Below, one piece after another: positions 1,391 through 57,257 of a stretch of 64,000 nucleotides of DNA. The position numbers were made by a program, and so were the translations under genes. Positions within the stretch are counted from its first letter, which is position 1; each line of letters starts with the position of its first letter. The notes below the pieces were generated by a model. The model saw nothing but the letters and a program-made list of their open reading frames with translations. It searched no databases and had not been told where the DNA came from. The DNA is from Chthonobacter albigriseus (GTDB lineage: Bacteria; Pseudomonadota; Alphaproteobacteria; Rhizobiales; Pleomorphomonadaceae), in assembly GCF_013839445.1 (NCBI RefSeq), contig NZ_JACDIT010000001.1, positions 1,591,935 through 1,655,934 on the forward strand, written 5' to 3'.

Positions 1391-2683
1391 TCAGCCGACG
1401 GGCGGCGCGTAGTCGGACGGATCCACCATGCCCGGGCGCCCGTCGAGGAAGAGCGAGGCCCGCTTGGGCGGCGTCTCGGCGATCACCTTGCCCCGCCGCA
1501 CCACCGCGAGCCGCGTCGCCCGCATCCGGATCGCCTCGATCGGGTCGCGCGCCTGCAGGAGCACGAAGTCGGCGTGGCAGCCGGCGGCAAGGCCGTAGCC
1601 CTCCAGCCCCATCACCCGCGCCGGGTTGGTGGTCACCGCCTCGAAACAGAAGGTCATCGCCTCCCGGCTCGTCATCAGGCCGACGTGGAGCCCCATGTGC
1701 GCGACGTCGAGCATGTCCGCCCCGCCGAGCGAGTACCAGGGGTCCATGCAGCAATCCTGGCCGAAGGCGACGTTGACCCCGGCGGCCCTCAGCTCCGGCA
1801 CCCGCGTCATGCCGCGGCGCTTGGGATAGGTGTCGTGCCGCCCCTGCAGCGTGATGTTGATCAACGGGTTCGGGATGGCGTGGAGACCCGCCTCCGCCAT
1901 CAGCGGGATCAGCTTGGAGACGTAGTAGTTGTCCATCGAGTGCATCGACGTCAGGTGCGAGCCGGCGACGCGGCCCTGCAGCCCCAGCCGCTGCGTTTCG
2001 TAGGCGAGCGCCTCCACCTGCCGCGACAGGGGATCGTCGGTCTCGTCGCAGTGCATGTCGACGCGAAGGCCCCGCTCCGCCGCGATCTCGCAGAGCGCCT
2101 TCACTGACGCCGCGCCGTCGGCCATCGTCCGCTCGAAATGCGGGATGCCGCCGACCACGTCGACGCCCATGTCGAGCGCGCGGAGGAGGTTCTCCGCCGA
2201 CTTCGGCGCGCGGAAGTACCCGTCCTGCGGAAACGCCACCAGTTGCAGGTCGATGTAGGGCGCGACCGTCCTCTTCACGTGGAGCAGCGCTTCCACCGCG
2301 GTCAGCCGGTCGTCGCAGATGTCGACGTGGGTGCGGATCGCCAGCAGCCCCTGCGACACCGCGAGGTCGCAGTAGCGCAGCGCCCGTTCCGCCACCGCCT
2401 CCGGCGTCAGGAGCGGCTTCAGCTCGCCCCAGAGTGCGATGCCCTCCAGAAGCGTGCCCGACCGGTTGAGCCGCGGGATGCCGAGCGACAGCGTGGCGTC
2501 CATGTGGAAGTGCACGTCGACGAAGGGCGGCGAAACGAGCAGCCCGCCGGCGTCGATGACCCGGCCCGCCTCCGCCGCGATCCCCGGCGCGATTTCCAGG
2601 ATGCGCCCGCCGGAGACGGCGATGTCCTGGCCGGTCCGGCCGTCGGGCAGCGTCGCGTTTATGACCAGGAGTTCGACGGCCAT
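1391..2683 (-). CDS. CodA-type cytosine/creatinine deaminase-family amidohydrolase
   Basis: This 430-residue amidohydrolase-superfamily protein probably deaminates a cyclic amidine or N-heterocycle in the cytosol. It aligns residue for residue with E. coli CodA at an offset of three: metal and catalytic positions H58, H60 (VDVHFH), Q153, H211, E214 (HCDETDD), H243 and D310, then DPWY. The residue equivalent to CodA D314, which contacts the base, is Cys (C311), so cytosine may not be the true substrate. CodA relatives include creatinine deaminases. The ATG has AGGAG 8 bases upstream, and the gene overlaps the end of the preceding amidohydrolase by 25 bp. It is the last gene of the leftward deaminase/ABC operon, so its substrate is probably what the ABC system imports or a derivative of it. 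Confidence 0.85.
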   Translation of the reverse strand: MAVELLVINATLPDGRTGQDIAVSGGRILEIAPGIAAEAGRVIDAGGLLVSPPFVDVHFHMDATLSLGIPRLNRSGTLLEGIALWGELKPLLTPEAVAERALRYCDLAVSQGLLAIRTHVDICDDRLTAVEALLHVKRTVAPYIDLQLVAFPQDGYFRAPKSAENLLRALDMGVDVVGGIPHFERTMADGAASVKALCEIAAERGLRVDMHCDETDDPLSRQVEALAYETQRLGLQGRVAGSHLTSMHSMDNYYVSKLIPLMAEAGLHAIPNPLINITLQGRHDTYPKRRGMTRVPELRAAGVNVAFGQDCCMDPWYSLGGADMLDVAHMGLHVGLMTSREAMTFCFEAVTTNPARVMGLEGYGLAAGCHADFVLLQARDPIEAIRMRATRLAVVRRGKVIAETPPKRASLFLDGRPGMVDPSDYAPPVG

Positions 2684-4212
2684 CCCTTGCTCTCCTGCGC
2701 ATCCGACGTGAAGGCCGGCTCCGTGCCGAGCCGATGGATGCCGATGTCCATGGCGTTACACCGCTTGTGGATCGCGTGGAAGCTTTCCAGGAAGCGCCAG
2801 TTGATCGCCTCGGTCTGCGTGTGTCTCGCCTGGAACTCCGGCATCAGGTCGCGCAACTCGGCGAGCAGGGCCGCCTCGTTGATCTTCAGGCACTTGCCGT
2901 TCTCCACGACGATCTCGCCATTGACGATCACCTTTTCGATCGACGAGCCGTTCTCCGCGTAGACGAGGTGGTTTCGGATGTCGTGCCGCGGCGTGAAGTT
3001 TGCCGTCCGCATGTCGAGCACCAGCATGTCCGCCTTCATGCCGGGCGCGAAATGCCCGACCTCGTGCTCGATCAGCGCGCTTTTGGCACCGGCGACCGTG
3101 GCCGCGTGGAGCACTTCCGTGGAGGTGACCCAGCGGCCGTAGTCTGCGGTGCCGATCTTGTGGATCAGCCCGGCCGCATGCATCACGTCGAACATCCGAG
3201 GCGTGTCGTTGGTGGAGATGCCGTCCGAGCCGAGCGCGACGTTGACGCCCGCGTCGATCAGCCGGCGCACCGGCGCGATGCCGGCGCCGAGCTTCTGGTT
3301 GGAGATCACGTTGTGGACGATGGAGCAGCCCGCCTCGCCCATCATCGCGATGTCCGCGTCGGTCACCCAGATGGAATGGGCGATGGTGACCCCGGGGTGC
3401 AGGATGCCGAGGTCCTTCATGTAGGCGATCAGCGTCTTGCCGTAGTCCACCGGGCCGGTGACGCCCTGTACCTTCGTCTCCACGATGTGGGTGTGGAAGG
3501 GTGTCTTCGTCTCGCGGGCGTAGGCATCCACCGCCAGCATCAGCTCCGGCGTGCAGCGCTGCGGGGCCGACGGCGCCATCATGAAGCGGATCCGTCCGTC
3601 GAGGCCGTGGAAGCGGTCGAACGCCTCGCGCGCGAAAGCCATGTAGCCGTCGACCGTCGGCGTCGGGTTGGCGTCGACCTCCGCCTGCAGGTCGGCCGGC
3701 ACCATCTCGCGGGCGAAGGGGATGGTGTCCAGGAAGTTCTTGTCGATCACGTGCCCGGACACGGTCGCCCGGATACCGACGTCCCGGTAGGCCTGGACCA
3801 CCGCGCCGAGCTTGGCGATGTCCTGCCGCGGTGCCTCGAACACGTCGTCGGTGAGGCAGGTGGACCCGGTGCGCAACGACTCTGCGCCGACCAGCATGGT
3901 CCGGAGGTAGATCAGCCGCTCCTCCAGCGCCGACGCTCCGAGGATCGGGTAGGCGAGCAGCATCCAGATCTCGAGCGGCATGTTGTCGTAGCGCCCCTTG
4001 TAGAGCGCCTCGCCCGAATGGAGGTGGGCGTTGACGAGCCCCGGCATGACCAGCCGGTCCGTGCCGTCGATGACGGTGTCCGCCGCCACCTGGAGGTTGC
4101 GGCCGATGGCGGCGATGCGGTCGTCCACGATGTGGATGTCGCCGGTGAACGGTTCGGCGCCGTGCGTCCCGCCCATGGCCAGGATGGTCGCGCCCTTGAT
4201 GAGGATCGACAT
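2659..4212 (-). CDS. Amidohydrolase of the MTA/SAH deaminase - guanine deaminase - atrazine hydrolase group
   Basis: This 517-residue zinc-dependent hydrolase has the subtype III deaminase layout: H63 and H65 (NAHLHSGE), H242 and E245 (FHTHIVET), H279 (IAHSIW) and D330 (ALGSDGISTND). Its composite beta-sandwich ends are recognisable at both termini (MSILIKGATILA; EKVIVNGEIVVENGK). These residues support hydrolytic deamination of a purine-like or aminated ring, but the sequence alone does not separate MTA/SAH, guanine, 8-oxoguanine or pterin substrates. The tail beyond residue 460 is longer than usual and carries the overlap with the downstream CodA-like gene. It lies 26 bp after the ABC ATPase gene in the same operon, so it is probably a catabolic step for the imported compound. 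Confidence 0.8.
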   Translation of the reverse strand: MSILIKGATILAMGGTHGAEPFTGDIHIVDDRIAAIGRNLQVAADTVIDGTDRLVMPGLVNAHLHSGEALYKGRYDNMPLEIWMLLAYPILGASALEERLIYLRTMLVGAESLRTGSTCLTDDVFEAPRQDIAKLGAVVQAYRDVGIRATVSGHVIDKNFLDTIPFAREMVPADLQAEVDANPTPTVDGYMAFAREAFDRFHGLDGRIRFMMAPSAPQRCTPELMLAVDAYARETKTPFHTHIVETKVQGVTGPVDYGKTLIAYMKDLGILHPGVTIAHSIWVTDADIAMMGEAGCSIVHNVISNQKLGAGIAPVRRLIDAGVNVALGSDGISTNDTPRMFDVMHAAGLIHKIGTADYGRWVTSTEVLHAATVAGAKSALIEHEVGHFAPGMKADMLVLDMRTANFTPRHDIRNHLVYAENGSSIEKVIVNGEIVVENGKCLKINEAALLAELRDLMPEFQARHTQTEAINWRFLESFHAIHKRCNAMDIGIHRLGTEPAFTSDAQESKGWPSNSWS

Positions 4213-4238
4213 GGAAATGTGCCTTTGGGTTGGAGAGG

Positions 4239-5330
4239 TCAGCCGGGAATGACGAAAGTGTCCTGCGGATGCCAGGCGAGACGGACCTCGTCCCCGCGCG
4301 CCAGCCCGAGGCGGCCGACCTCGTTCTGCTGCTTCTGGACGAACATGCTGCGCCCGTCGGGGAGATCGACGTGGATGGTCACCACCGCGCCGATGAACTC
4401 CTCCGCCGCCACCGTTCCGGTCACCGCGTCGAGCCCCGGCTCGGCCGGGTCGGCGGCGCGCGTGAGGGCGATCTTGTCGGCCGCGATCACGAAGGCGGCG
4501 TCCTGACCCACGGCGATCCCCGTCGCGCCGGCCGAACGGAACCGCCCGAGCGCGTTCTCGATCACGATGCCACCCGCCCCGCTTTCCTTCAGCGTGCCGG
4601 AGAGGATGTTGCTGGCCCCGATGAACTCGGCCACGAAGCGGGTGGCCGGCGCGCGGTAGATGTCCTGCGGCGTGCCGATCTGCTGCACCCGCCCTTCGCT
4701 CATGATGACGATCCGGTTCGCCATCGCGAAGGCTTCCGACTGCGTGTGCGTCACGTAGACGAAGGTGATGCCGAGTTCACCGTGCAGGCGGGCGAGCTCG
4801 GTCTGCATCCTGACGCGAAGATGCGCATCGAGCGCGCTCAAGGGCTCGTCGAGGAGCAGCACCTCCGGCTCCAGCGCCAGTGCCCGGGCGAGCGCGACGC
4901 GCTGCCGCTGTCCGCCGGAGAGCTGGTCGATGCCGCGCCCGGCCATGCCCGCGATGCCAAGCCGGTCCAGCCACTCCATCGCCTTGGCCCGGCGACCGAC
5001 GGCATCCGTCGTGCGCCGCTGCTTGAGCCCGAATTCCACGTTCTCCAGCACGCTGAGGAACGGAAACAGCGCGTAGGACTGCCAGACCATCGGCGTGTCC
5101 CGCTCCCAGGCGGGAACGTCGTTCATCACCCGGCTCCACATCCGGATCTCGCCGGCGGACGGCTTGTCGAGCCCCGCCAGCATCCGGAGCGTGGTGGTCT
5201 TGCCGCAGCCGGACGGCCCCATCAGCGCGATGAACTCGCCCTTGGCGATCTCAAGGTCGATCGAGTGCACGGCGACGCTGTCGCCATAGCTCTTGCGCAC
5301 CTTGTCGAGCGTCATGATCGGTACCGACAT
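4239..5330 (-). CDS. ABC transporter ATP-binding protein, spermidine/putrescine (PotA) type
   Basis: This 363-residue ATPase drives the adjacent importer. It has Walker A GPSGCGKTT (about residue 40), Q-loop WQSYALFP, signature [15 protein letters not shown], Walker B LLLDEPLSALD and H-loop YVTHTQSEA, followed by a C-terminal TOBE region (about 290-360) as in CUT1/POPT ATPases. The H-loop has T in place of the usual D (THTQ), a conservative change. The start is the ATG at 5328-5330, whose A is shared with the TGA of the upstream permease (TGATG). The gene order substrate-binding protein, permease, permease, ATPase is that of Pot systems; nearby deaminases argue for an N-rich solute rather than a simple polyamine. 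Confidence 0.9.
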   Translation of the reverse strand: MSVPIMTLDKVRKSYGDSVAVHSIDLEIAKGEFIALMGPSGCGKTTTLRMLAGLDKPSAGEIRMWSRVMNDVPAWERDTPMVWQSYALFPFLSVLENVEFGLKQRRTTDAVGRRAKAMEWLDRLGIAGMAGRGIDQLSGGQRQRVALARALALEPEVLLLDEPLSALDAHLRVRMQTELARLHGELGITFVYVTHTQSEAFAMANRIVIMSEGRVQQIGTPQDIYRAPATRFVAEFIGASNILSGTLKESGAGGIVIENALGRFRSAGATGIAVGQDAAFVIAADKIALTRAADPAEPGLDAVTGTVAAEEFIGAVVTIHVDLPDGRSMFVQKQQNEVGRLGLARGDEVRLAWHPQDTFVIPG

Positions 5331-6142
5331 CAACCGTCCCCACCCCCTGCGAGCGGCCGCTTGCGCCGCCAGGAAAACACCGCGATCTGGGCGACGACGA
5401 CCAGCGCCACCGTGACCAGGAAGACCAGGCTGCCGACCGCGTTGATGCGCGGGCTGACCTGCCCCTGCAGCATCGCCAGGATCCGCACCGGCAGCGTCTC
5501 GTGAATGCCGGACACGAACCAGGCGATCATGAACTCGTCGAACGAGACCGCCGCCGTGATCGCGAGCGACGACAGGATCGCTGGCTTGCAGAACGGCACG
5601 ATCACCTGCCCCATCGTCGCCCAAGGCGTCGCGCCGAGGTTCCACGCCGCCGGCTCGATCGCCGGGTCTAGGTCGGCAAGTCGGATCCGGATCAGCGCCA
5701 TCGCATAGGGCGCGGCGATCACCACATGGCCCAGGATCACCGCCGTCAGCGTGCCGGAGAGCCCGATCGCTGCCATGAAGGAAAGGTTGGCAATGCCGAG
5801 GATCACCACGGGCACGGTCGGCGGCAGCGAGGCGAGCGCGAGATAGGCACGCTTGCCGGTGAACTGGTAGCGGTAGTCCACATAGGCCGTCGCAAAGCCG
5901 ATGAAGGTCGCGACGACCGCGGTGGTCACCGCCACGATCATCGTGTTGCGGAAGCCGGTGGAGACCGTCTCGTCGGCGAACACCGCCTCGTACCAGGCCA
6001 GGCTGAAGCCGCCCCAGGGCAGCGCCGGGAACCGGTCCACGTTGAAGGAGAAGGCGACCAGCGTCAGGATCGGCGCCAGGATGAACAGGAAGACCAGGAG
6101 CACGTAGCCCATTAGGATCCAGCGGACGGTGGCGGCGTTCAT
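5330..6142 (-). CDS. ABC transporter permease, PotC/PotI type
   Basis: This 270-residue inner-membrane permease has about six hydrophobic segments and a cytoplasmic EAA loop (EPAAWNLGATPWATMGQVIV, about residues 171-190) that docks on the ATPase. The N-terminus (YVLLVFLFILAPILTLVAFS) is typical of PotC/PotI. Its ATG overlaps the stop of the other permease by four bases (ATGA), and its own stop overlaps the ATPase start by one, so the three subunits are translationally coupled. It makes the heterodimeric channel of the importer encoded by this operon. Confidence 0.88.
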   Translation of the reverse strand: MNAATVRWILMGYVLLVFLFILAPILTLVAFSFNVDRFPALPWGGFSLAWYEAVFADETVSTGFRNTMIVAVTTAVVATFIGFATAYVDYRYQFTGKRAYLALASLPPTVPVVILGIANLSFMAAIGLSGTLTAVILGHVVIAAPYAMALIRIRLADLDPAIEPAAWNLGATPWATMGQVIVPFCKPAILSSLAITAAVSFDEFMIAWFVSGIHETLPVRILAMLQGQVSPRINAVGSLVFLVTVALVVVAQIAVFSWRRKRPLAGGGDG

Positions 6143-7014
6143 CGTGCGCCTCCCCGCCGACGGTAGGCGACAGCGGACATCACCGTCAGCGTCGCCATCA
6201 GCGTGATGACCATCACCACTGCGACCACCGCGGCCCGCGGCCAGTTGTTGCCGGATTTCACCTGGTCGGTGATCAGGATCGACAGCGTCGGCGGCTTGGA
6301 CCCGCCGAGGAACAGCGGGCTCACGTAGTCGCCGAAGGCGAACAGGAAGGCGAAGGTGCCGCCGATCACGAGTCCCACCCGCGCGGAAGGTACCACCACC
6401 TTGAACACGGTCTTCAGCGGCCCGCAGCCGAGGTTGTAGGCCGCCTCCACCAGCCGCTTATCGACCATGGAGAGCGAGAACAGCTGGATCAGCAGCACCA
6501 GCGGCAGCGCCAGCGTCACGTAGCCGACCATCGTGGCCGTGGACGTGCCGATGATGTTGACGGGCGAAATGCCGGCGAGCCCGAGCACGCCGTTGATGAT
6601 GCCCTTTTCGGCGAGGATGATCTGCCAGGAGTAGATCCGCACGAGGTAGCTGGTGAAGAACGGCGTGATCAGCGCCACGATCGCCAGCGTGCGCGTCCGC
6701 GGCGAGGCGATGAAGGCGAGCGCATAGGCGGCGGGAAAGGCGATCAGCGTGATCAGCACGGCCGCCACCAGAGCCATCCAGAAGGTGTAGAGGAAGGCGT
6801 CGTAGAAGAAGCCGGAGGAGAAGATCCGGATCCAGTTGTCGGGGATGAAATCCTGCTCGAGCTTGAAGTTCTTCACCCGCCAGAACGTCATCCAGACGAG
6901 CACGACCAGCGGCGCCACGAAGAAGGCGACCTGCCAGACCAGCGACGGCGATGCCCAGAACACCGCGAAGCGGTCGATCCGCGGCCGGCTTCGCTTAGGG
7001 GGTGTGACGTCCAA
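6139..7014 (-). CDS. ABC transporter permease, PotB/PotH type
   Basis: This inner-membrane permease has about 291 residues and six hydrophobic segments. Its EAA-like loop is VEAAYNLGCGPLKTVFKVVV, near residue 195. I chose the TTG at 7012-7014 because GGAG lies 6 bases before it. A TTG at 7030-7032 would add six residues (MSRRSS) but lacks a Shine-Dalgarno sequence, so the start is uncertain. It is separated from the binding-protein gene by 80 bp that hold a 12-bp stem-loop, and overlaps the next permease by four bases. It pairs with that permease to form the membrane channel. Confidence 0.85.
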   Translation of the reverse strand: MDVTPPKRSRPRIDRFAVFWASPSLVWQVAFFVAPLVVLVWMTFWRVKNFKLEQDFIPDNWIRIFSSGFFYDAFLYTFWMALVAAVLITLIAFPAAYALAFIASPRTRTLAIVALITPFFTSYLVRIYSWQIILAEKGIINGVLGLAGISPVNIIGTSTATMVGYVTLALPLVLLIQLFSLSMVDKRLVEAAYNLGCGPLKTVFKVVVPSARVGLVIGGTFAFLFAFGDYVSPLFLGGSKPPTLSILITDQVKSGNNWPRAAVVAVVMVITLMATLTVMSAVAYRRRGGAR

Positions 7015-7045
7015 ACTGGATCTCCGCGACAAGACGTGGACAGCG

Positions 7046-7074
7046 GATCCGCGCCGGGCGAGCCGGCGCGGATC
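7046..7074 (-). terminator. Intercistronic stem-loop after the substrate-binding protein gene
   Basis: GATCCGCGCCGG and CCGGCGCGGATC form a perfect 12-bp stem with loop GCGAG (+ strand). It starts about 20 bases after the stop of the binding-protein gene and lies before the permease gene. No U-run follows on the transcript side, so it is more likely a 3'-end stabiliser or partial terminator that keeps binding-protein mRNA in excess than a full terminator. Confidence 0.6.
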
Positions 7075-7094
7075 TCATGCGCGAGGTCGAAGGA

Positions 7095-8240
7095 TCAGAG
7101 CGACTTGAACTCGGTCCAGACTTCGTTCCAGGTGTCGATGTCCTGCTGGACCGGCGTCTTGCGGATGTGGATCTTGCCGTCCTTGTACTCGTCCATGACG
7201 TTGCGCTCTGTGAAGGTCATGCGCAGGCGCTTGGCTTCAGCCGGAGCGTCGGCGTTGAGCTTCTCCCAGCCCGCCTTGCTCGGGATCGAGGCGTTGTAGG
7301 CCGGCATCAGCGCGGAGGCCATCTGGCCCTCGGCCGAGGTCATGTACTGGATGAAGGCCTTGGCGAGGTCCTTCTTCTCCGACGCGGCCATGATCGACAT
7401 GGACTCCGTCCACTGGATGCCGCCTTCCGCCGGCACCGTCGCGTCGACCGGCACGCCGTCCTTGGCGAGCAGCAGGGTGATCCAGTCGCCGACGCCCGGG
7501 ATCGCCTTGGCGCTGCCGTTGGTGAGCGAGGCGAAGGTGTCGGCCATTGAGTAGAAGGCCGAGGTCTGCGGCTTCAGCGAGAACACCGTCTCCTTCAGCT
7601 TCTCGAACGCCGCAGCGTCGATGTCGAAGGGCGACTTGTTGCCGTTGTAGCAGGACAGGCACCCCATCGACGGCAGGTACCAGTCGAAGAAGCCGACGCC
7701 GCCCTTGATCTTCTCGTCCCACAGGATCTTGTAGGAGGCGACGTCCTCGGCGGTCAGCGCATCCGTGCGGTAGGCGATGCCGAGGTAGCCGAAGCGGATG
7801 ATCAGCGAGTAGAGCTTGTCGTCCAGCCAGTGGCCGGGGAACTTCTGGAACTCGGGGAAGAAGGTGTCGAGCGCGTAGTCCGCCGGGTTCATCTCCTCGA
7901 TGAAACCGCCGTCGCGCAGCATCACCACATACTCCGCGTCCGACAGGACAACGTCGTAGGTGCCCGGGGGCGACTGGTTGACCAGCGCCAGCATGTTCTC
8001 GCCGCCGACATACTCCTTGGCGACGACCTTGACCCCGTACTTGTCCTCGAACGGCTTCACCACCGCCGGATCCGCGTGGCCGGGCCACGACAGAAGGTTC
8101 AGCGTCTTCTCCTGGGCGTAGGCGCGCTCGGACTGCAGACCCGTGGCGGCGGCGACGCCGAGCGCACCGGCGCCCTGCAGGAACTGGCGGCGGCCGATGC
8201 CGCGGCTGAGGAAGGCGAACATATCGATCTTGTCAGTCAT
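7095..8240 (-). CDS. ABC transporter substrate-binding protein, PotD/PotF family, Tat-exported
   Basis: This 381-residue periplasmic binding protein starts with a twin-arginine signal: GIGRRQFLQGAGALGVAAAT (about residues 14-33), ending near AYAQ. The mature part opens TLNLLSWPGHADPAVVKPFE, the classical start of the polyamine-binding PotD/PotF fold (Gly/Trp where PotF has NWxxY). A Tat signal suggests folding before export. The usual acidic amine-binding residues cannot be confirmed by eye, so polyamine specificity is not assured. The ATG is preceded by GAGGGG. The gene follows the GuaD-like deaminase gene by 84 bp holding alternative hairpins, and leads the ABC part of the operon. Confidence 0.88.
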   Translation of the reverse strand: MTDKIDMFAFLSRGIGRRQFLQGAGALGVAAATGLQSERAYAQEKTLNLLSWPGHADPAVVKPFEDKYGVKVVAKEYVGGENMLALVNQSPPGTYDVVLSDAEYVVMLRDGGFIEEMNPADYALDTFFPEFQKFPGHWLDDKLYSLIIRFGYLGIAYRTDALTAEDVASYKILWDEKIKGGVGFFDWYLPSMGCLSCYNGNKSPFDIDAAAFEKLKETVFSLKPQTSAFYSMADTFASLTNGSAKAIPGVGDWITLLLAKDGVPVDATVPAEGGIQWTESMSIMAASEKKDLAKAFIQYMTSAEGQMASALMPAYNASIPSKAGWEKLNADAPAEAKRLRMTFTERNVMDEYKDGKIHIRKTPVQQDIDTWNEVWTEFKSL

Positions 8241-8283
8241 GACTTGCCCCTCTGGTTTGTCTTTTGGGTCTTCGTGGCACGCC

Positions 8284-8321
8284 GGGCCGCCCTCACGCGG
8301 CCCGTCGCGATCGCGGGCCGC
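8284..8321 (-). promoter_or_regulatory. Two mutually exclusive hairpins between deaminase and ABC genes
   Basis: On the + strand GGGCCGC (8284-8290), GCGGCCC (8297-8303) and GGGCCGC (8315-8321) occur in series. The middle arm can pair with either outer arm, giving 7-bp stems with a 6-base or 11-base loop. The array starts 4 bases after the deaminase stop codon. The three-arm layout is that of an attenuator or a tandem 3'-end structure. No U-tract is present, so termination would be Rho-dependent or absent. Confidence 0.4.
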
Positions 8322-8324
8322 CGG

Positions 8325-8810
8325 CTAGAAGGCGGTGAACTCGGGTGACTGCGCCCACTCCCTGAGGACGACGAGCGCCTCCTCCCGGAGCATCGGCTCG
8401 GCCTTCAGAAGGGCGCGGTCGTGCACGTCGTGCCGCACCAGGGTGGTCAGCGGCTCCAGGTCGAAACCGCAGACCTCCTCGGCGTCCTTCAGCGTGCTGG
8501 CGTAGTACATCTTGGTGATGCGGGCCCAGAACATCGCCGCGACGCAGAGCTCGCACGGCTGGCACGAGGTGTAGAGTTCGCAGCCGGAGAGATCCCACGT
8601 ACCGAGCTTGCGGCCGGCATCGCGGATCGCCTCCACCTCGCCGTGGGAGGTCGGGTCGTGGTTCTCCACCACCCGGTTGACGCCTTCGCCGACGATCTCG
8701 CCGTCCTTGACGATGACGCAGCCGAACGGCGCAGCCTTGCTCGCCCGCATCTCGTCGCGGCTGATCTCGATCGCGCGGCGCATGAACTTGAGCTTGTCGG
8801 CCTCTGCCAT
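8325..8810 (-). CDS. GuaD-like nucleobase deaminase (CDA fold)
   Basis: This 161-residue zinc deaminase of the cytidine-deaminase fold closely resembles bacterial guanine deaminase GuaD. The core PFGCVIVKDGEIVGEG leads to NHDPTSHGEVEAI (zinc H56, catalytic E58; the usual HAE is HGE here), then YTSCQPCELC (zinc C86 and C89) and FWARITKMYYA. Guanine to xanthine plus ammonia is the family reaction, but related members act on other purines. The ATG at 8808-8810 has GGAG 8 bases upstream; in-frame ATGs at 8825 and 8864 would lengthen it but lack a Shine-Dalgarno sequence, and the 8864 start would lie inside the probable sigma-54 promoter. It is first in the leftward operon that includes the ABC transporter and two amidohydrolases. 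Confidence 0.85.
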   Translation of the reverse strand: MAEADKLKFMRRAIEISRDEMRASKAAPFGCVIVKDGEIVGEGVNRVVENHDPTSHGEVEAIRDAGRKLGTWDLSGCELYTSCQPCELCVAAMFWARITKMYYASTLKDAEEVCGFDLEPLTTLVRHDVHDRALLKAEPMLREEALVVLREWAQSPEFTAF

Positions 8811-8844
8811 CTCTGTCGCTCCCATGAGTATCGACGAAGGATCT

Positions 8845-8860
8845 AGCAGAAAGCATGCCA
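8845..8860 (-). promoter_or_regulatory. Sigma-54-type promoter for the deaminase/ABC operon
   Basis: Read leftward, the sequence is TGGCATGCTTTCTGCT. It has GG and GC exactly 12 bases apart and matches the -24/-12 consensus TGGCAC-G-N4-TTGCW at all but two positions. It lies 35 bases before the ATG at 8810. The core GGCATGCTTTCTGCTAGA recurs upstream of the creatininase gene. Transcription would need RpoN and an enhancer-binding activator such as NtrC. Confidence 0.6.
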
Positions 8861-9152
8861 GCAACCCCCCGCTGAAAAGCCCGCGGGGTGCAAGTTCAAT
8901 GAAGTCTTCAAATGGCTCGATTAAGTAAAGCTATGCATTCGGGCGCCGTCGGTCCGGCAAGCCCGCCCAGGACGGTCCTGAAAAGGAGATTTCAGCAAAT
9001 TCGCTGATCCGAAAGCCGTTTTTCTGCCTCCGCGTCCCTCCCACAGCGCTTGCGCATCCCGCAGGGGACCGGCCGCGGTTCGTTCAGGACTGTACTGATG
9101 CCTATTCCATGAGCAGTCCGTTGCGTGCCCCCGGCTCCGCGCAGGGGAAGGA
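8861..9152. other. Non-coding interval upstream of the sigma-54 promoter
   Basis: I see no credible gene in this stretch between the deaminase and creatininase genes. It holds two dyads that could bind an activator of the sigma-54 promoter: TGAAGTCTTCA at 8900-8910 (about 40 bases before the -24 element) and CTGAAA-N6-TTTCAG at 8978-8995. A single GGTGCA half-site at 8887-8892 is present, but a full NtrC dyad is not. The region is locally richer in A and T (about 8891-8940) than its surroundings, as expected for a control region. Confidence 0.35.
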
Positions 9153-9186
9153 TCGCCCGTTGATGCTGTCCGTGACCAACGGGCGA
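9153..9186 (-). terminator. Stem-loop after the creatininase gene
   Basis: TCGCCCGTTG (9153-9162) and CAACGGGCGA (9177-9186) form a perfect 10-bp stem with a 14-base loop. It begins 7 bases after the creatininase stop codon on the leftward transcript. It is followed by TCCTTCCCC rather than a pure U-run, so it is a weak intrinsic terminator or a 3' stabiliser. It separates the creatininase transcript from the deaminase operon. Confidence 0.55.
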
Positions 9187-9192
9187 CCTGAA

Positions 9193-9963
9193 TCAGAGGC
9201 CGAATGCCTTCAGTATGGCCGGCGGGATCAGCGCTGCATATTCTTTCATCATTCGCTCACCCTTCTCCACGCTGGCCGAACCGGCCGGCGACAGCGCGCC
9301 CGACGGCGGGATCGCCTCCAGGTCGGCCGGGTAGATGTCGTAGGGCGGGAAGTTGGCCAGCCGTTCCTCGCGGACGCGGGAGAGATCGACCATGCCCGGA
9401 TGCAGCGACATCATCAGCGACGTCTCGAACACCGCGGCGTGCTCCAGGGCCCAGCCCGGGAAGCCGTCCGGGAAGACGATCTTCAGCGTCTCCTCCGACG
9501 TGAACTCGTAGTAGTCGAGCTTCAGGATGGTCATGTCGGTGATGCCTTCGAGCTTCAGCTCGCGCATCGCCACGTCCACACCCTCCGCCAGGAACGGGCC
9601 GTTCTCCATGTGGCCGTTCATCAGCACCAGCCGCCGCACGCCGTGGCGGGCGAACTCCACGATCATGTCGCGGACGAGATGAATGAGCGTCACACCCGAC
9701 AGGCTGGTGGTGCCGATGTAGTGGTTGCCGCCGCCCGACTTCGGCTGCGACCGGGCGCCGTAGTTCACCGCCGGCGCGACGATCGCGTCGATCTGCTCGG
9801 CGACCGCCCGGGAGACTGCCGTTGGCAGCAGCGAGTCCGTGCCGAGGCACATGTGATAGCCGTGCTGCTCGGTCGAGCCGAAAGGCACCAGGACGATTGC
9901 GCCCTTTTCCACCCGGCTCTTGTAGTCCGGCCAGGTCATCTCACCCATCATCACCGTGTTCAT
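9193..9963 (-). CDS. Creatininase-family amidohydrolase
   Basis: This 256-residue protein has the metal ligands of Pseudomonas creatinine amidohydrolase at a constant offset of two: E32, H34 (GSTEQHG), D43 (GTDSLL), H118 and E120 (NGHMEN). It would open a lactam or cyclic amide; creatinine to creatine is the type reaction. The family also contains FAPy deformylase and peptide-processing members, so the substrate is not settled. GHMENG and the downstream AVFETSLMM match the family core. It has its own sigma-54-type promoter at 10002-10017 and lies beside deaminases and an N-solute transporter, which fits a nitrogen-acquisition role. Confidence 0.85.
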   Translation of the reverse strand: MNTVMMGEMTWPDYKSRVEKGAIVLVPFGSTEQHGYHMCLGTDSLLPTAVSRAVAEQIDAIVAPAVNYGARSQPKSGGGNHYIGTTSLSGVTLIHLVRDMIVEFARHGVRRLVLMNGHMENGPFLAEGVDVAMRELKLEGITDMTILKLDYYEFTSEETLKIVFPDGFPGWALEHAAVFETSLMMSLHPGMVDLSRVREERLANFPPYDIYPADLEAIPPSGALSPAGSASVEKGERMMKEYAALIPPAILKAFGL

Positions 9964-10001
9964 ATCCCACCCGTCGGTTTCTTGTTGCGGCCGGTGCCTC
10001 T

Positions 10002-10017
10002 AGCAGAAAGCATGCCG
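10002..10017 (-). promoter_or_regulatory. Sigma-54-type promoter for the creatininase gene
   Basis: Read leftward, the sequence is CGGCATGCTTTCTGCT. The GG and GC pairs are 12 bases apart. The 18 bases covering 9999-10016 are identical to those at 8842-8859, upstream of the GuaD-like gene. The site lies 39 bases before the creatininase ATG, so the predicted leader is about 25-30 bases. The surroundings outside the 18-mer are unrelated, which argues for functional conservation rather than a recent duplication. Confidence 0.6.
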
Positions 10018-10040
10018 CATAGCCGATGGGCGGATTCCGG

Positions 10041-12374
10041 TCAGCGGACGAGGCGGAAGGTTGCTTCGTGCACGCCGGGCCCGAGCCGGATCCGCAGGCC
10101 CGCGGGATCGGCGTCGCCCGAAAGCGGAATACCGGCGAGCATCACGTCCCTGGTGCCCGGGCCGGGCACGAGCGTCGCCCTTGCGCCGGGCGGTACTTCC
10201 GCCCGATAGCGGACGAGGTCGCCCTCCACCGACCAATCCACCCCGATGCGACCCGCGACGGTATCCCGCCGCGCCTTGAGCGGCGACAGCGCGGGAATGA
10301 CCACCGGTTCCAGCAGGATGTGTCTGTAGCCCGGTTCGGTCTCGTCGGGGCGGATGCCTGCCGCGGCTTCGAACAGCCACTGACAGACCGCGCCATAGGC
10401 ATAGTGGTTGTAGGAGTTCATCGAGGGCTCGTATGGCGTTCCGTCCGGCCCCATCGCGTCCCAACGCTCCCAGATCGTGGTCGCGCCCATCCGCACCTGG
10501 TAGAGCCAACCGGGCACCTCCTCCTGCAGCAGGACAGCGGCCGCAAGATCCGCTTCCCCCGCCTTGACGAGGGCCGGCAGCAGCGCCGGCGTGCCGATGA
10601 AGCCGGTGCCGATCCGCCCGCCCGCCCGCGCGATGCTCGCCTTGAAGCAGGCGATCGTGCGCGGCAGGAGGCCCGGCGGGATCAGGTCATGGAGGATCGC
10701 AAGCGCGTAGGAGGTCTGGTCGTCGTAGATGAGCCGCCCGGACGGCTCCATGAAGGTGCGTTGGAAGGCAGCGCGCACCGTTTCCGCAAGGGCGGTCATC
10801 CGGCCGGCGACGTCGCCCGCGCCGACCACCGCGGCAGCCTTGGCCGTCAGGGTGGCGGAGATGAAGAGATAGATCGTCGCCGCTGCGTCCGTGCCGATGG
10901 TCGGCAGCGGATGGTCGGCCGTCCCGGCCGGCTGCAGCCAGTCGCCGAAGGTGAAGCCTCGGTCGTGCCAGCCCGGCGGCGGGCGGACGATCGGCCCATC
11001 GCTGATGCCGTGGACGAAGTCGACCCAGCGCACCATCGCCGGCAGCGCCTCCTCCAGGATCGCGCGATCCCCGTACTGGAGATAGAGCGTCCAGGGCACC
11101 ACGGTGATCGCATCGCCCCAACCGGTGCTCCCGGCGAAGTTCGGCAGGTGCTCGGGGTGAAGCCGGGTCGGATCGGGCACCACGTGCGGGATCGCGCCGT
11201 CGGCGCGTTGGTCGGCCATCACGTCGCGCAGCCACTTGGCGAGGAAGGCATGGCAGTCGAACAGGTGGCAGGCGGCCCCCGCGAAAACCTGGGCATCGCC
11301 GGTCCAGCCCAGCCGCTCGTCGCGCTGCGGACAGTCGGTCGGCACCTCGATGAAGTTCGACCACTGCGACCAGAGGGTGTTCTCGACCAGCCGGTTGACG
11401 AGGGGATGGCCGGTGACCAGTTCGCCCGCGGGTTCCCCGAGCGAGGAGAAGGGAACGAACCGGATCGCCGTGACCTCCGCCCGCCCGCGGATGGTGACCC
11501 GGGCATAGCGGAAGCCCTGGAAGGTGAAAAACGGCCGATAGTGTTCCTCCCCTTCGCCCTTCAGCACGTACTCCACCCGGCTCTCCGCCGAACGGAAGTT
11601 CGCGTTGTCCAGGTCGCCCCCGGCGGTCAGGATCTCCGCGTGCTCGACCACGATCCGGGCGCCTGCCTTCCCGCGCACCGAGAAGGCCACCGTCCCCGAC
11701 GCGTTCTGGCCGAAGTCGTGGATGGTGGACCGGCGGGAGACCGGCCAGGACCGCACCGGGTCGAGCGCAGAAAGGTCGCGCACCGGCCGGGCCTCCTGAC
11801 GCACCAGCACCGACGGATCGAAGGCGATGGCCGCCGTCCCCGCGGATTCAACCAGCCGCTCGCGCCGCGCGTCGTAGACCTCGCCGAAGTAGATCCCGGA
11901 TTTCAGCACGGGCAGCAGGCCGCTGCGCCATGTCGGATCGGTCGCGACCAGAAGGGCGCCCTCTCCGTTACGGATCTCCGCGATGGCGGCGATGTGCTCG
12001 CCCCACGTGTTCAGGATCGCCACCGGCTGCCACATCATCTGAGAACGGAACCAGCCGTCCGCCAGCCAGATCTCGATACGGTTGTCGCCGGGCAGGAGGT
12101 GGTCGGCGACCGCGTAGGTCTGGAAGCTCAGGCGCTTGTCATAGGCCGTCCAGCCGGGTGTGAGCAGGTCGTCGCCCACGCGCTTTCCGTTGATGAAGCA
12201 GCGATAGAGGCCGTGCGCGCTGATCCGCAGCACCTCCGAGCCGACCACCGACGGCAGCCGGAACCGCTGCGAAACGAAGCTCGCCGCCGTGCCGACGCCC
12301 CGGTCGGAAAGCGGCCGGATCATATCGGCCACCCAGGCTGATGCCGGCCGGCTCGGAGCAGCTGGAAAACTCAT
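10041..12374 (-). CDS. Alpha-L-rhamnosidase (GH78)
   Basis: This 777-residue glycoside hydrolase probably releases terminal L-rhamnose from plant or microbial glycosides. The N-terminal jelly-roll domain contains YRCFINGKRVGDDLLTPGWT (about 57-76). The concanavalin-like domain follows (HDFGQNASGTVAF, about 219-231), then the six-hairpin catalytic domain with PTDCPQRDERLGWTGDAQ (345-362; acidic residues D347, D352, E353, D360) and ATTIWERWDAMG further on. No signal peptide is evident, so it would act in the cytosol on imported glycosides. The ATG at 12374 is preceded by GGGAGG at a rather long spacing. It is last in the leftward GntR-TRAP-dehydrogenase unit and 107 bp from the dehydrogenase. 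Confidence 0.85.
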   Translation of the reverse strand: MSFPAAPSRPASAWVADMIRPLSDRGVGTAASFVSQRFRLPSVVGSEVLRISAHGLYRCFINGKRVGDDLLTPGWTAYDKRLSFQTYAVADHLLPGDNRIEIWLADGWFRSQMMWQPVAILNTWGEHIAAIAEIRNGEGALLVATDPTWRSGLLPVLKSGIYFGEVYDARRERLVESAGTAAIAFDPSVLVRQEARPVRDLSALDPVRSWPVSRRSTIHDFGQNASGTVAFSVRGKAGARIVVEHAEILTAGGDLDNANFRSAESRVEYVLKGEGEEHYRPFFTFQGFRYARVTIRGRAEVTAIRFVPFSSLGEPAGELVTGHPLVNRLVENTLWSQWSNFIEVPTDCPQRDERLGWTGDAQVFAGAACHLFDCHAFLAKWLRDVMADQRADGAIPHVVPDPTRLHPEHLPNFAGSTGWGDAITVVPWTLYLQYGDRAILEEALPAMVRWVDFVHGISDGPIVRPPPGWHDRGFTFGDWLQPAGTADHPLPTIGTDAAATIYLFISATLTAKAAAVVGAGDVAGRMTALAETVRAAFQRTFMEPSGRLIYDDQTSYALAILHDLIPPGLLPRTIACFKASIARAGGRIGTGFIGTPALLPALVKAGEADLAAAVLLQEEVPGWLYQVRMGATTIWERWDAMGPDGTPYEPSMNSYNHYAYGAVCQWLFEAAAGIRPDETEPGYRHILLEPVVIPALSPLKARRDTVAGRIGVDWSVEGDLVRYRAEVPPGARATLVPGPGTRDVMLAGIPLSGDADPAGLRIRLGPGVHEATFRLVR

Positions 12375-12481
12375 GACCCGACAAACCTCCCGGGCGAAAC
12401 GCGAGCCCGCTGCCGGTAGGGATAGCGAATCTTTCCAAACAAAGTTCGCAGGGACGCGGCGAAATGCGGTTCGCGTGCCGA

Positions 12482-13507
12482 TCAGGCGTCGAAGGCGAGC
12501 TGGACTTTGAGGGTCTGTTCGGGCCGGTTCTCCAGGAGATCGAAGGCCGCGTGGGCTTCGCCGGCCGGGAAGGTCTGGGTGACTAGCCCTTCCGCGTCGA
12601 GCCGGCCTGCGGCGAGCCATTCCACGACCTGACGGATCAGCCGCGCGTTCAGCCGCGATCCGTGGATCGCAAGCTCCTTCGCTACCACCGCCTGCTGCAC
12701 CAGGGCCGAAGGCTCGGCGGAAAAGCCGAGCAGCCCGATCCGTCCGGCCGGCGCCGCGACACGGACCGCCTCCGAAAGCAGGCTCGGAATTCCGGCGCCG
12801 TCGATCACAAGGCTCGGACCCAGCCCTTCGCCTTCCCCGGCGACAGCCTCCGGCACCGGTTCGCTCGGCGAATGGATCACCCGCTCGGCCCCGAGGGCGG
12901 CGGCGCGGTCGAGCCGCGACCGGTCGATGTCGGCCACGATCACCCGCGCGCCCTTCATGCGCGCGACGAGCATCACGGTGAGGCCGACCGTGCCCGCCCC
13001 ATAGACGAGAACCGTGTCGTCCGGACCGCACCCCGTGTTGGCGAGCACGTTGGCGGCGATGGAGAAGGGCTCCGCCATGGCCGCCGCCGCAAAGGAGAGA
13101 CTCTCCGGCACTCGCACCGCATTGCCCGCCGGCAGCGTGACGTGGCTGCGGAAGCCGCCGTCCCTGTGCACGCCGAACACCTGGAGGTTGGCGCAGACGT
13201 TGGGACGCCCGATCCGGCACGGCCGGCAATGGCCGCAGGCCACCACCGGATCGGCGACAACGGGATCGCCCGCCGCGAGCCCCTCGACGCCCTCACCGAC
13301 CGCCTCGACCACACCCGCGAACTCGTGGCCGATGATCCGCGGATAGACGGCGAAGGGATTGGAGCCGTGCAGGATGTGGATGTCCGAACCGCAGATGCCG
13401 CCCCGCACCACCCGCATCAGCACCGCGCCTGGGCCGGGCTCTTCGATCGGAGCTTCCCCGACGACGAGCTCGCCTGGCCGGCGCACCGAGATGGCGAGCC
13501 CTGTCAC
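12482..13507 (-). CDS. Zinc-dependent dehydrogenase (sorbitol/L-galactonate DH, MDR family)
   Basis: This 341-residue medium-chain dehydrogenase would oxidise a secondary alcohol of a sugar, polyol or aldonate using NAD(P). It has GGICGSDIH (catalytic zinc Cys), IIGHEFAGVV, the four-Cys structural zinc lobe CGHCRPCRIGRPNVC, and a Rossmann motif VYGAGTVGL (about residue 170). It starts at the GTG 13505-13507, which overlaps the DctM stop codon (GTGA), so it is translationally coupled to the TRAP transporter. The next gene is an alpha-L-rhamnosidase. Together these suggest use of a rhamnose-containing glycoside or related sugar acid. The exact substrate is an inference. Confidence 0.82.
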   Translation of the reverse strand: MTGLAISVRRPGELVVGEAPIEEPGPGAVLMRVVRGGICGSDIHILHGSNPFAVYPRIIGHEFAGVVEAVGEGVEGLAAGDPVVADPVVACGHCRPCRIGRPNVCANLQVFGVHRDGGFRSHVTLPAGNAVRVPESLSFAAAAMAEPFSIAANVLANTGCGPDDTVLVYGAGTVGLTVMLVARMKGARVIVADIDRSRLDRAAALGAERVIHSPSEPVPEAVAGEGEGLGPSLVIDGAGIPSLLSEAVRVAAPAGRIGLLGFSAEPSALVQQAVVAKELAIHGSRLNARLIRQVVEWLAAGRLDAEGLVTQTFPAGEAHAAFDLLENRPEQTLKVQLAFDA

Positions 13508-53502: not shown

Positions 53503-54566
53503 CCATCGCTCCCAAACCCGGCGGCGTCGAGTTCCGCAACGTCTCCCGACGCTACGGGGCCGTGGTGGCGGTCGACAACGTCAGTTTCGTCGTCGATCCC
53601 GGCACGCTCGTGACGCTTCTCGGCCCGTCGGGCTGCGGCAAGACCACCACGTTGCGCATGATCGCCGGCCTGGAGAGCGCGTCCTCAGGCACCATCATGA
53701 TCGGTGGCAAGGACGTGACCCGCTTGCCGGCGACCGACCGCAACGTGACCATGGTGTTTCAGAGCTACGCTCTGTTCCCGCACATGACCGTGCTGGAGAA
53801 CGTCGGCTTCGGCCTGGAGGTATCCCCCCTCTCCCGGTCCGAGCGGGAGGCGCGCAGTTCGGAAGGGCTCCGCCTCGTCGGCCTCGCCGGCTACGAAAAG
53901 CGGCTGCCGAGCGAGCTTTCCGGGGGTCAGCAGCAGCGTGTGGCCGTGGCCCGGGCGCTCGTGCTCGAACCGGAGGTGCTGCTCTTCGACGAACCCCTGT
54001 CGAACCTCGACGCCAAGCTCCGCCGGCGCATGCGCGACGACATCCGCGACCTCCAGCGCTCGCTCGGCCTCACTTCGGTCTACGTCACCCACGACCAGGA
54101 GGAGGCGCTCGCCGTCTCCGACCGGATCATCGTCATGAACCGGGCGGTCATCGCGCAGGAGGGCTCGCCGCGCGACCTCTATCAGCGTCCCGCCGACCGC
54201 TTCGTAGCCGACTTCATCGGAGGCGCCAACCTGATCGACGGCGTGGTCACCGGCCGTGACGGGCCCACCGCCACCGTCCGGGTCGGCGCGATGACCCTCG
54301 ACGTCCAGGCCCCGGGAATCGCGACGGGCGACGTGGTCGTGGCCGTCCGGCCGCAGGCGATCCGGGTCGAGCCCGTGGCATCGGACGCCACGCTGGAAGT
54401 CACGGTGCGGAAGGCCACGTATCTGGGCTCGCACATGGAATATGCTCTCGACAGCGCGGTCGGCGAACTCTTCGCCGTGGACCAGGACGTGTCGCGGGCC
54501 GTGTCCACGGGATCCCTGGCGCACGTGCGCTTCGATCCCCGAGGGATCGCGCTGGTTGGCCGGTGA
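53499..54566 (+). CDS. ABC transporter ATP-binding protein, AfuC/FbpC type
   Basis: This 355-residue ATPase has Walker A GPSGCGKTT, Q-loop FQSYALFPHM, signature LSGGQQQRVAVARAL, Walker [16 protein letters not shown] and H-loop YVTHDQEEA. A regulatory C-terminal domain (about 240-355) has TOBE-like elements and VAVRPQAIRVEP. It is translationally coupled to the fused permease (ATGA). Together with the SBP and phosphatase it forms an uptake unit under the divergent LacI regulator. Confidence 0.9.
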   Translation: MTIAPKPGGVEFRNVSRRYGAVVAVDNVSFVVDPGTLVTLLGPSGCGKTTTLRMIAGLESASSGTIMIGGKDVTRLPATDRNVTMVFQSYALFPHMTVLENVGFGLEVSPLSRSEREARSSEGLRLVGLAGYEKRLPSELSGGQQQRVAVARALVLEPEVLLFDEPLSNLDAKLRRRMRDDIRDLQRSLGLTSVYVTHDQEEALAVSDRIIVMNRAVIAQEGSPRDLYQRPADRFVADFIGGANLIDGVVTGRDGPTATVRVGAMTLDVQAPGIATGDVVVAVRPQAIRVEPVASDATLEVTVRKATYLGSHMEYALDSAVGELFAVDQDVSRAVSTGSLAHVRFDPRGIALVGR

Positions 54567-54593: not shown

Positions 54594-57257
54594 ATGCGCC
54601 AGGGGACGACGGGCGTGAACAGCATCTACCGTCGGCTCATGCTGACGCTGGGCGCGCTTGTCGCGCTGACCCTGGCCGTCGGCACGGTCGGCTGGGTGGG
54701 CTTCACCTCCACTGAGAGCACCCTGGAGACCGCTCAAGCAGAGAGCATGGCAGACCTTCGCCAGGTTATGACGCTCGCCGAACGCAGCGCCAGCCTGGCG
54801 GCCAAGGCGCCAACCATCGCCGACGTGAGGACGCCGCAGGCCCTGGCTGAAGGCCGCAAGGATCTGGAGGCGCGTCTGGCGGAGTTCATGGCGCTCGCGG
54901 CGTCGCTTCGGTCCACCAAGGACCCGGTTTCACCGGCGCGCGTTCCTTCGATCGTCCGCCTTGCCGACAGGCTCGAGGGCATCGTCGTCAATCTCATCGC
55001 GGTCACCGGTGAGGGGCTGGACGCCCGTCGCCGCCTCGGCGAGCACCGGCTCGCCCTGGTCGAACTGAGCGACCGGCTGGTCGAAGCGGAAGCATTGCTG
55101 CCCTCCTTGCCGGATCCCGGTCGGGCGTCCCGCGCAGTCGAGGCCGCCCGCCGGGCTCTCTCCGCGGCGCGAGCCGGGATGATCGCCGCCGACACCCCCT
55201 CCGTCGACGACGCCCGGGCCGACTTCGTGCGTTCGGCCGCCAACTACCGTCGCCTCGCCATGGAAGCCGGTCCGGGTACGGACCCGTCGGCGCTCGCTGC
55301 CATGGACACCGCTATCCAGGCCCTTGGCGACCTCTTCGCCGCCCGGCGCCTGGAGATCAGCGCCAACCTGCGGATCCGCATCTTCCTGGCCGCCGTGGAT
55401 ACCTCCTCCACCCATCTCACCTCCATGGTGAGGGGCCTTGCCGCCACGGTGGAGCAGGCCGCCCTCGCCCGCGGCGAGCGTTCCGCCGAGGCGTTGCGCC
55501 GTGGCAAGATGGCGATGCTTCTGTTCGCCGGCCTCTGTCTTGTCGCTGCGCTGGTTGCCGCCAGCACCCTGATGCGCGACGTCGTCACCAATCTGCGCGG
55601 GGCGACGAGCGCGCTCACGCGCCTCGCCGCGGGCGACTTCGGCGCGGAAGCGCCTGGCGCCGAGCGGCCCGACGAGATCGGCGAACTCGCTCGCGCCTTT
55701 GCCGTGTTTCGCGCCCAGGCGATCGAACGCGACGAGTTCGCCCGGCGCGAGGCGGAGAACGCCGCCCGCCTCACCGCCATCTTCGACAACATGACCGGCG
55801 GGCTTGCCCTGTTCGACCGGGACGGCCGCCTGAAGACCTGGAACCCGAGCTTCGTCAGCCTGAGCGGCTTGGCCGCCGATCACGTGCAGACCGGAGCGGC
55901 GCTCGACCACCTGCTGGAGGATCTCTTCGGCCGCGGTGTCGAGACCCGGTCCTTCGACGGCCGCGCCCTTGGAGGCCGCTCGCTCGACCTCGCGCGCCTC
56001 GCCCGCAGCCGGGCCATGCAGAGTGTCGTGCTCGAACAGCACTACCCGGACGGCACCGTCGTCGAGATCCGCACCAACGCGATGCCGAACGGCGAGTGGC
56101 TCGCCAGCCTTTTCGACCTCACCGACCGCAAGATGATGGAGCGCCAGCTCGGTCATGCCCAGCGCATGGAGGCGATCGGCCAACTCACCGGTGGCATCGC
56201 CCATGACTTCAACAACGTGTTGGCGGCCATCAGCGGCAATCTGCAGATGATCATCGACGAATCCGAACTCGGATCCACAACGCGCACCCGTGCGCTGCGC
56301 GCCCTCGACGCGGCCGAGAGTGGCGGGGCGACCACCCAGCGCCTGCTCGCCTTCGCCCGGCGCCAGCCACTGGAGCCGGAACCGACCGATCTCAATACCC
56401 TGGTGGCTGACGTCGCGGACCTCCTGGTCTACGGCCTCGGGGCCGGGATCGACATCGCGCTGTCCCTCGACGACGACCTGCCGCCCGCCATGATCGACCC
56501 CGAGCGCATGGAGACGGCACTCATCAACCTGATCTTCAACGCGCGCGATTCCATATCCGGGCCCGGCCGGATCACCATCGCCACCGAGGCGGCGCCGGAC
56601 GGTGGGATCCGGCTTTCGGTTCGCGACACCGGATCGGGCATGGCGCCCGAGGTGGCGGCGCGGGCTTTCGAGCCGTTCTTCACCACCAAGCCATTTGGCG
56701 CGGGCAGCGGACTCGGCCTGTCGATGGTCTACGGTTTCGTGCGCCAGTCCGGCGGCAGCATCGCAATCGACAGCGAGGTCGGAAACGGAACCGTCATGAC
56801 CGTCACCCTGCCGGCCGCGTCGGCCGAAGCCGAGGCCGAGCCGGAGACCTTCGCACGGGTGATGCCGCCCCCTTCCGGAGCGCATGTCCTCGTGGTGGAG
56901 GACGACCCGCGCGTGCGGCCCGCGACCGCCGAGCTGGTCGCCAGCCTCGGCTACCGGGTGACGGACGTCGCCACCGCGGAGGCCGCGCTGGCGGTGCTCG
57001 ACCGGGATGTCGTCGATCTCCTCTTCACCGACGTCAGCCTCGGCCCGGGTCCGGACGGGCCGGCGCTCGCTGGACTGGCCCGCGCCCACTGTCCGGGGCT
57101 GCCGGTCGTCTACTGCTCGGGCTTCCCCCGCGGCGCGGACCTCGACGGCACCGTCCTCGACAAACCCTTCCGGCGCGACAGGCTCGCAGCGGCCTTGGCC
57201 GCGGCCCTGCAGGATCAGCCCGAACCGATCGGCTTCACATCCGCGTCGAACACATAG
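54594..57257 (+). CDS. Hybrid sensor histidine kinase (HAMP-PAS-HisKA-HATPase-REC)
   Basis: This 887-residue membrane kinase has a first span at about 13-37, a mostly helical periplasmic sensor (about 38-305), a second span (MAMLLFAGLCLVAALVAAST), HAMP (about 325-380), PAS (DNMTGGLALFDRDGRLKTWN), the phosphoacceptor helix GQLTGGIAHDFNNVLAAISG (H537), ATPase boxes (LINLIFNARDSI; DTGSGMAPEV; GSGLGLSMVYGF) and a C-terminal receiver (VVEDD; D813 in LLFTDVSLG; K857). It resembles TorS-type sensors. I chose the ATG at 54594, preceded by GGCGAGG. Its last 43 bases overlap the convergent response-regulator gene, its probable partner. Confidence 0.85.
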   Translation: MRQGTTGVNSIYRRLMLTLGALVALTLAVGTVGWVGFTSTESTLETAQAESMADLRQVMTLAERSASLAAKAPTIADVRTPQALAEGRKDLEARLAEFMALAASLRSTKDPVSPARVPSIVRLADRLEGIVVNLIAVTGEGLDARRRLGEHRLALVELSDRLVEAEALLPSLPDPGRASRAVEAARRALSAARAGMIAADTPSVDDARADFVRSAANYRRLAMEAGPGTDPSALAAMDTAIQALGDLFAARRLEISANLRIRIFLAAVDTSSTHLTSMVRGLAATVEQAALARGERSAEALRRGKMAMLLFAGLCLVAALVAASTLMRDVVTNLRGATSALTRLAAGDFGAEAPGAERPDEIGELARAFAVFRAQAIERDEFARREAENAARLTAIFDNMTGGLALFDRDGRLKTWNPSFVSLSGLAADHVQTGAALDHLLEDLFGRGVETRSFDGRALGGRSLDLARLARSRAMQSVVLEQHYPDGTVVEIRTNAMPNGEWLASLFDLTDRKMMERQLGHAQRMEAIGQLTGGIAHDFNNVLAAISGNLQMIIDESELGSTTRTRALRALDAAESGGATTQRLLAFARRQPLEPEPTDLNTLVADVADLLVYGLGAGIDIALSLDDDLPPAMIDPERMETALINLIFNARDSISGPGRITIATEAAPDGGIRLSVRDTGSGMAPEVAARAFEPFFTTKPFGAGSGLGLSMVYGFVRQSGGSIAIDSEVGNGTVMTVTLPAASAEAEAEPETFARVMPPPSGAHVLVVEDDPRVRPATAELVASLGYRVTDVATAEAALAVLDRDVVDLLFTDVSLGPGPDGPALAGLARAHCPGLPVVYCSGFPRGADLDGTVLDKPFRRDRLAAALAAALQDQPEPIGFTSASNT

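Follow-up and report, generated by a model that had tools for sequence, protein, structure and literature searches.

Why should a creatininase-family gene and a neighboring operon headed by a GuaD-like deaminase gene be preceded by the same 18 bases? The question arises from a 64,000-nucleotide stretch of the Chthonobacter albigriseus genome, referred to here as the window, for which a sequence-only reading had pointed out two identical 18-mers in the same orientation, 32 and 36 bases ahead of two leftward starts. It had interpreted them as RpoN promoters that place a GuaD-like operon and a creatininase gene in one regulon under NtrC-type control.

Results

The repeat and its distances are as described: TCTAGCAGAAAGCATGCC lies at 8842–8859 and 9999–10016 on the same strand, with the ATGs of guaD and of the creatininase-family gene (crn) at 8810 and 9963, respectively, and an in-frame ATG at 8825 as an alternative guaD start. 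A genome-wide pattern search finds two exact copies in the entire 4.64-Mb genome, both in the window, and no further exact target; the reversed control pattern matches twice genome-wide. A third place resembling the 18-mer, at window positions 54734–54751, has three mismatches and has lost one G of the GG; it does not rise above the reversed control and was set aside. The pair is the sole direct 18-base repeat of the window. First-order Markov simulation with the same dinucleotide make-up yields a mean of 0.85 such repeats per 64 kb and at least one in 15 of 40 runs, so the repeat by itself is not significant; its placement is. Identity in the flanks is at chance level (15/59 upstream, 8/31 downstream), confirming that they are unrelated, as the sequence-only reading had stated. 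Its further step, that the match is not a duplication remnant, does not follow, since the identity includes spacer and TAGA bases, more than sigma-54 needs, and an old short duplication is still compatible with the unrelated flanks. The element also contains a direct repeat, TGCT-TTC-TGCT.

Read leftward, the two sites are TGGCATGCTTTCTGCT and CGGCATGCTTTCTGCT, both with the GG-N10-GC arrangement of a −24/−12 promoter. The core of the guaD operon (TGGCATGCTTTCTGCTAGA; 8842–8860, reverse strand) has its −24 GG at 8858–8859 and its −12 GC at 8846–8847 and matches TGGCAYG-N4-YTGCW without mismatch; the crn core (CGGCATGCTTTCTGCTAGA; 9999–10017, reverse strand) has one mismatch. Scored with a sigma-54 matrix, the guaD and crn sites rank first and second, respectively, among all window positions on both strands, which bears out the proposed fit to the RpoN consensus; because the matrix follows a published consensus and its weights are only approximate, we rely on ranks rather than absolute scores. 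Matrix scoring covered the window and the retrieved loci, and the genome-wide promoter search used consensus patterns: these give 90 matches against 261 for the reversed control, that is, no enrichment, and several exact matches apparently fall within reading frames or at their borders. The interval 8700–10300 yielded no sigma-70-like promoter. With initiation placed 12 bases past the −12 element, transcription is predicted to start at about 8834 (guaD) and 9991 (crn), so that the leaders would be roughly 24 and 28 bases long. That both cores are sigma-54 promoters is well supported at the level of sequence, and we hold it with high confidence; with identical cores ahead of each, the operon and crn are most likely switched on together.

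The genes of the guaD operon are closely spaced and all leftward. Its first gene encodes the GuaD-like deaminase (8325–8810; guanine deaminase 1wkq, E 3e-30), followed by genes for a PotD-like substrate-binding protein (7095–8240), two ABC transporter permeases (PotB/H-like, 6139–7032; PotC/I-like, 5330–6142), a PotA-like ATPase (4239–5330; ABC_tran plus TOBE_2), a TRZ/ATZ-type amidohydrolase (2659–4212), and a cytosine-deaminase-like amidohydrolase (1391–2683; E. coli cytosine deaminase, E 1e-104). On the same strand, crn (9193–9963) is probably a separate transcription unit, since a strong hairpin, a probable terminator, lies just 3' of its stop codon (9153–9190, reverse strand; −23.3 kcal/mol, z −2.85). 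The next gene upstream of crn, oriented the same way, is alpha-L-rhamnosidase-like (10041–13229). The DNA upstream of crn is the end of this rhamnosidase gene, and any enhancer site for crn would lie inside that gene's 3' end or elsewhere.

How far can the crn product be named? It scores 343 bits against TIGR04448 (cut-off 235), and Glu34, His36, Asp45, His120, and Glu122 of the Pseudomonas creatininase, which we take to be the metal ligands, align to identical residues. Tyr121 and Trp154, presumably residues of the substrate pocket, are replaced by Met and Tyr, respectively. Because these two residues differ, we call the product creatininase-family only, in place of the "creatininase" of the sequence-only reading; creatinine is a possible substrate of the pathway.

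A link between the two units that is independent of the 18-mer comes from gene order in relatives. Among 84,980 species genomes searched, an equivalent operon occurs in Ancylobacter, other Xanthobacteraceae, Roseovarius sp. A-2, and one Rhodobacteraceae genome, usually in the order guaD–sbp–permease–permease–ATPase–ATZ–creatininase; the cytosine-deaminase-like gene then closes the operon in Roseovarius, the Rhodobacteraceae genome, and a further genome, G238. The creatininase-family gene is inside the operon at 13 loci (Ancylobacter, other Xanthobacteraceae, Roseovarius, and Rhodobacteraceae) and in G238, which indicates that it belongs to the guaD-operon pathway and supports the functional link drawn in the earlier reading. 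Compared with the operons of Ancylobacter, Roseovarius sp. A-2, and G238 (L047–L059 and L172), the window matches in gene content and almost entirely in gene order, its proteins being about 45–82% identical, but here crn is placed immediately upstream of the operon, not within it, and has a core copy of its own. In the congener G001 (locus L139) the operon genes are rearranged again.

What do the relatives carry in place of the 18-mer? Allowing up to three mismatches, the 18-mer is absent from the operon heads of all relatives examined. Several of them have a different −24/−12 element at the equivalent place, 37–58 bases before the start codon. At L172 of G238, whose binding protein is 82% identical, TGGCACGAAGGTTGCA lies 37 bases ahead of guaD and has the top matrix score among 2.9 million positions; at L139, from the same genus as the window, TGGCATGGCGCTTGCT lies 52 bases ahead of guaD. 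At a paralogous transporter (L170/L145) the element is TGGCACGGASCGTGCT, at about −58 from the probable start of the binding-protein gene; written out for this genome and for the congener G001 (L145), it reads TGGCACGGAGCGTGCT and TGGCACGGACCGTGCT, respectively. L154 carries TGGCATGAATTCTGCT at a comparable position. Such variation of the spacer around constant −24/−12 bases, at the same place, is the pattern expected from selection for sigma-54 recognition; if the element were instead an operator recognized by a different protein, conservation should fall on different bases. A recognizable element was not seen at the operon head in Roseovarius, Rhodobacteraceae, or most Ancylobacter loci, and among L047–L059 and L172 only L172 has a clear one before guaD; control of this kind is therefore not universal. 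Elsewhere in the order, the window's own copy excepted, no sigma-54 element was found just before creatininase genes, and a palindrome search upstream gave no motif common to the promoters.

L139 offers a variant of its own: at 9870–9990, a divergent ATZ-type amidohydrolase gene and guaD share one short intergenic region with back-to-back sigma-54-like elements, CGGCACGAGGATTGCT lying ahead of the gene divergent from guaD.

The genome encodes a single RpoN (PF04552, E 3.5e-70). NtrC (TIGR01818, 730 bits, cut-off 559), NtrX, and FlbD are above their family cut-offs, and there is a further GAFTGA-bearing response regulator besides NtrC and FlbD. Another response regulator resembling sigma-54 activators (L131, G000:C1:251414-251869) has an AAA domain without GAFTGA and is therefore probably not a sigma-54 activator. 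As a positive control, sigma-54-like sites were found at two of the three P-II loci of the genome, classical targets, with scores of 14.0 and 13.5. Several sites resembling the NtrC motif TGC-N11-GCA (PMC10746234) also occur at the P-II loci. Near the two promoters there is a sole candidate, a pattern match at 9099–9115 upstream of guaD, whose significance is weak against a background of 0.09 per 500 bases; within 500 bases upstream of crn there is none. Set against these sparse dyads, RpoN and the elements in relatives leave sigma-54 well supported and NtrC a reasonable guess. Of the proposed NtrC-type regulon, the sigma-54 elements ahead of both units hold, but NtrC control of guaD and crn is only plausible from the sequence.

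Discussion

In our model, the two 18-mers would be binding cores for sigma-54 RNA polymerase, each with a −24 GG, a −12 GC, and a T-rich spacer. They would serve two leftward units of one pathway, crn alone (9193–9963) and guaD–sbp–permease–permease–ATPase–amidohydrolase–cytosine-deaminase-like (1391–8825). At each site RpoN holoenzyme would form a closed complex, which an enhancer-binding activator, most likely NtrC responding to nitrogen shortage, would open. The proteins that take up an organic nitrogen compound and deaminate it or open its ring would then be produced together, the candidate substrate being creatinine-like or another cyclic amidine.

Where might the second core have come from? 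In relatives, crn in the operon would be served by one promoter, and in this lineage crn lies outside with a copy of the core. Given the identical spacer and TAGA, we favor a short copy over convergence, although the flanks differ too much for copying to be demonstrated. We speculate that this is lineage-specific rewiring, in which a gene leaving its operon acquired the operon's sigma-54 core as an 18-base copy, promoter copying rather than operon membership thereby preserving co-expression, and that the operon degrades an unrecognized cyclic nitrogen compound under nitrogen control; this fuller account is tentative, and we would put it somewhat below an even chance.

The alternative that survives best concerns the activator. 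An enhancer-binding protein that is not NtrC, for example the unassigned response regulator at G000:C16:86399, may open the sigma-54 promoters in response to a cue different from general nitrogen shortage. We take this as a serious possibility, if not the expected outcome: the absence of a convincing NtrC dyad at crn and the doubtful one at guaD speak for it, as does the third GAFTGA-bearing activator. NtrC, however, is the only one of the genome's activators whose role in nitrogen control is established, every product of the two units looks nitrogen-releasing, and NtrC sites can be weak or distant.

It is very unlikely that the 18-mer is instead the operator of a local repressor or activator, or another shared regulatory motif, with an accidental fit to sigma-54. 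An operator could account for the identity across the spacer and the TAGA bases not required by sigma-54, and the internal TGCT-TTC-TGCT repeat would suit it, but relatives retain the −24/−12 bases and not the remainder, the distance to the start codon suits a promoter core in every case, and no other promoter was seen nearby. Least credible of all is a chance repeat or a functionless fragment of a short duplication, which the simulated frequency of 18-base repeats would allow but which sits poorly with matching distances before two units whose genes share one operon in relatives, with copies that are the window's best promoter scores, and with flanks that hold no remnant identity.

Read as sigma-54 promoters, the two cores fit what is known of such targets. 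A survey gives the consensus TGGCAC-N5-7-TTGCT and, for alpha-, beta-, and gammaproteobacteria, counts genes of COG0687 (spermidine/putrescine-binding) and COG0402 (deaminase) among the targets of sigma-54 (PMC12316311). The window's promoters resemble those surveyed in GG-N10-GC, in TGGCAYG-N4-YTGCW, and in these target classes; they differ in being identical to each other over 18 bases, non-consensus positions included, and their activator is putative. In Corynebacterium glutamicum ATCC 14067, AmtR controls creatine/creatinine genes (PMC8864220). There, too, several separate creatine or creatinine units, including the creatininase-family crnA, are under nitrogen control through one shared short site; unlike the arrangement proposed here, AmtR is a TetR-type repressor and sigma-54 is not involved, and the transporter and downstream enzymes differ. 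In the literature library searched, no paper linked sigma-54 to creatininase. The guaD/crn pair makes a credible example of nitrogen-type gene control, though an ordinary one of a known kind.

The relevance of the locus lies in what it delimits. It would provide a well-delimited, testable nitrogen regulon for an uncharacterized but conserved alphaproteobacterial uptake-and-deamination operon. A creatininase-family gene is tied to this operon in two ways, through the gene order of relatives and through its identical promoter core, which narrows the search for the substrate, and the pair may represent a case of co-regulation outliving an operon.

Two minor observations concern the transporter genes. 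At L170 and L016 (G000:C14:310025-314522) there is a second binding protein of the PotD type, a paralog with 56% identity, and close to it a GuaD-like gene (50%). In the window itself, a 21-base exact inverted match, CGTGGTGGTCTTGCCGCAGCC, joins 5190–5210 and 53631–53651; at 5190 it encodes the Walker A motif of the ABC ATPase, and the match is therefore probably a conserved-motif coincidence.
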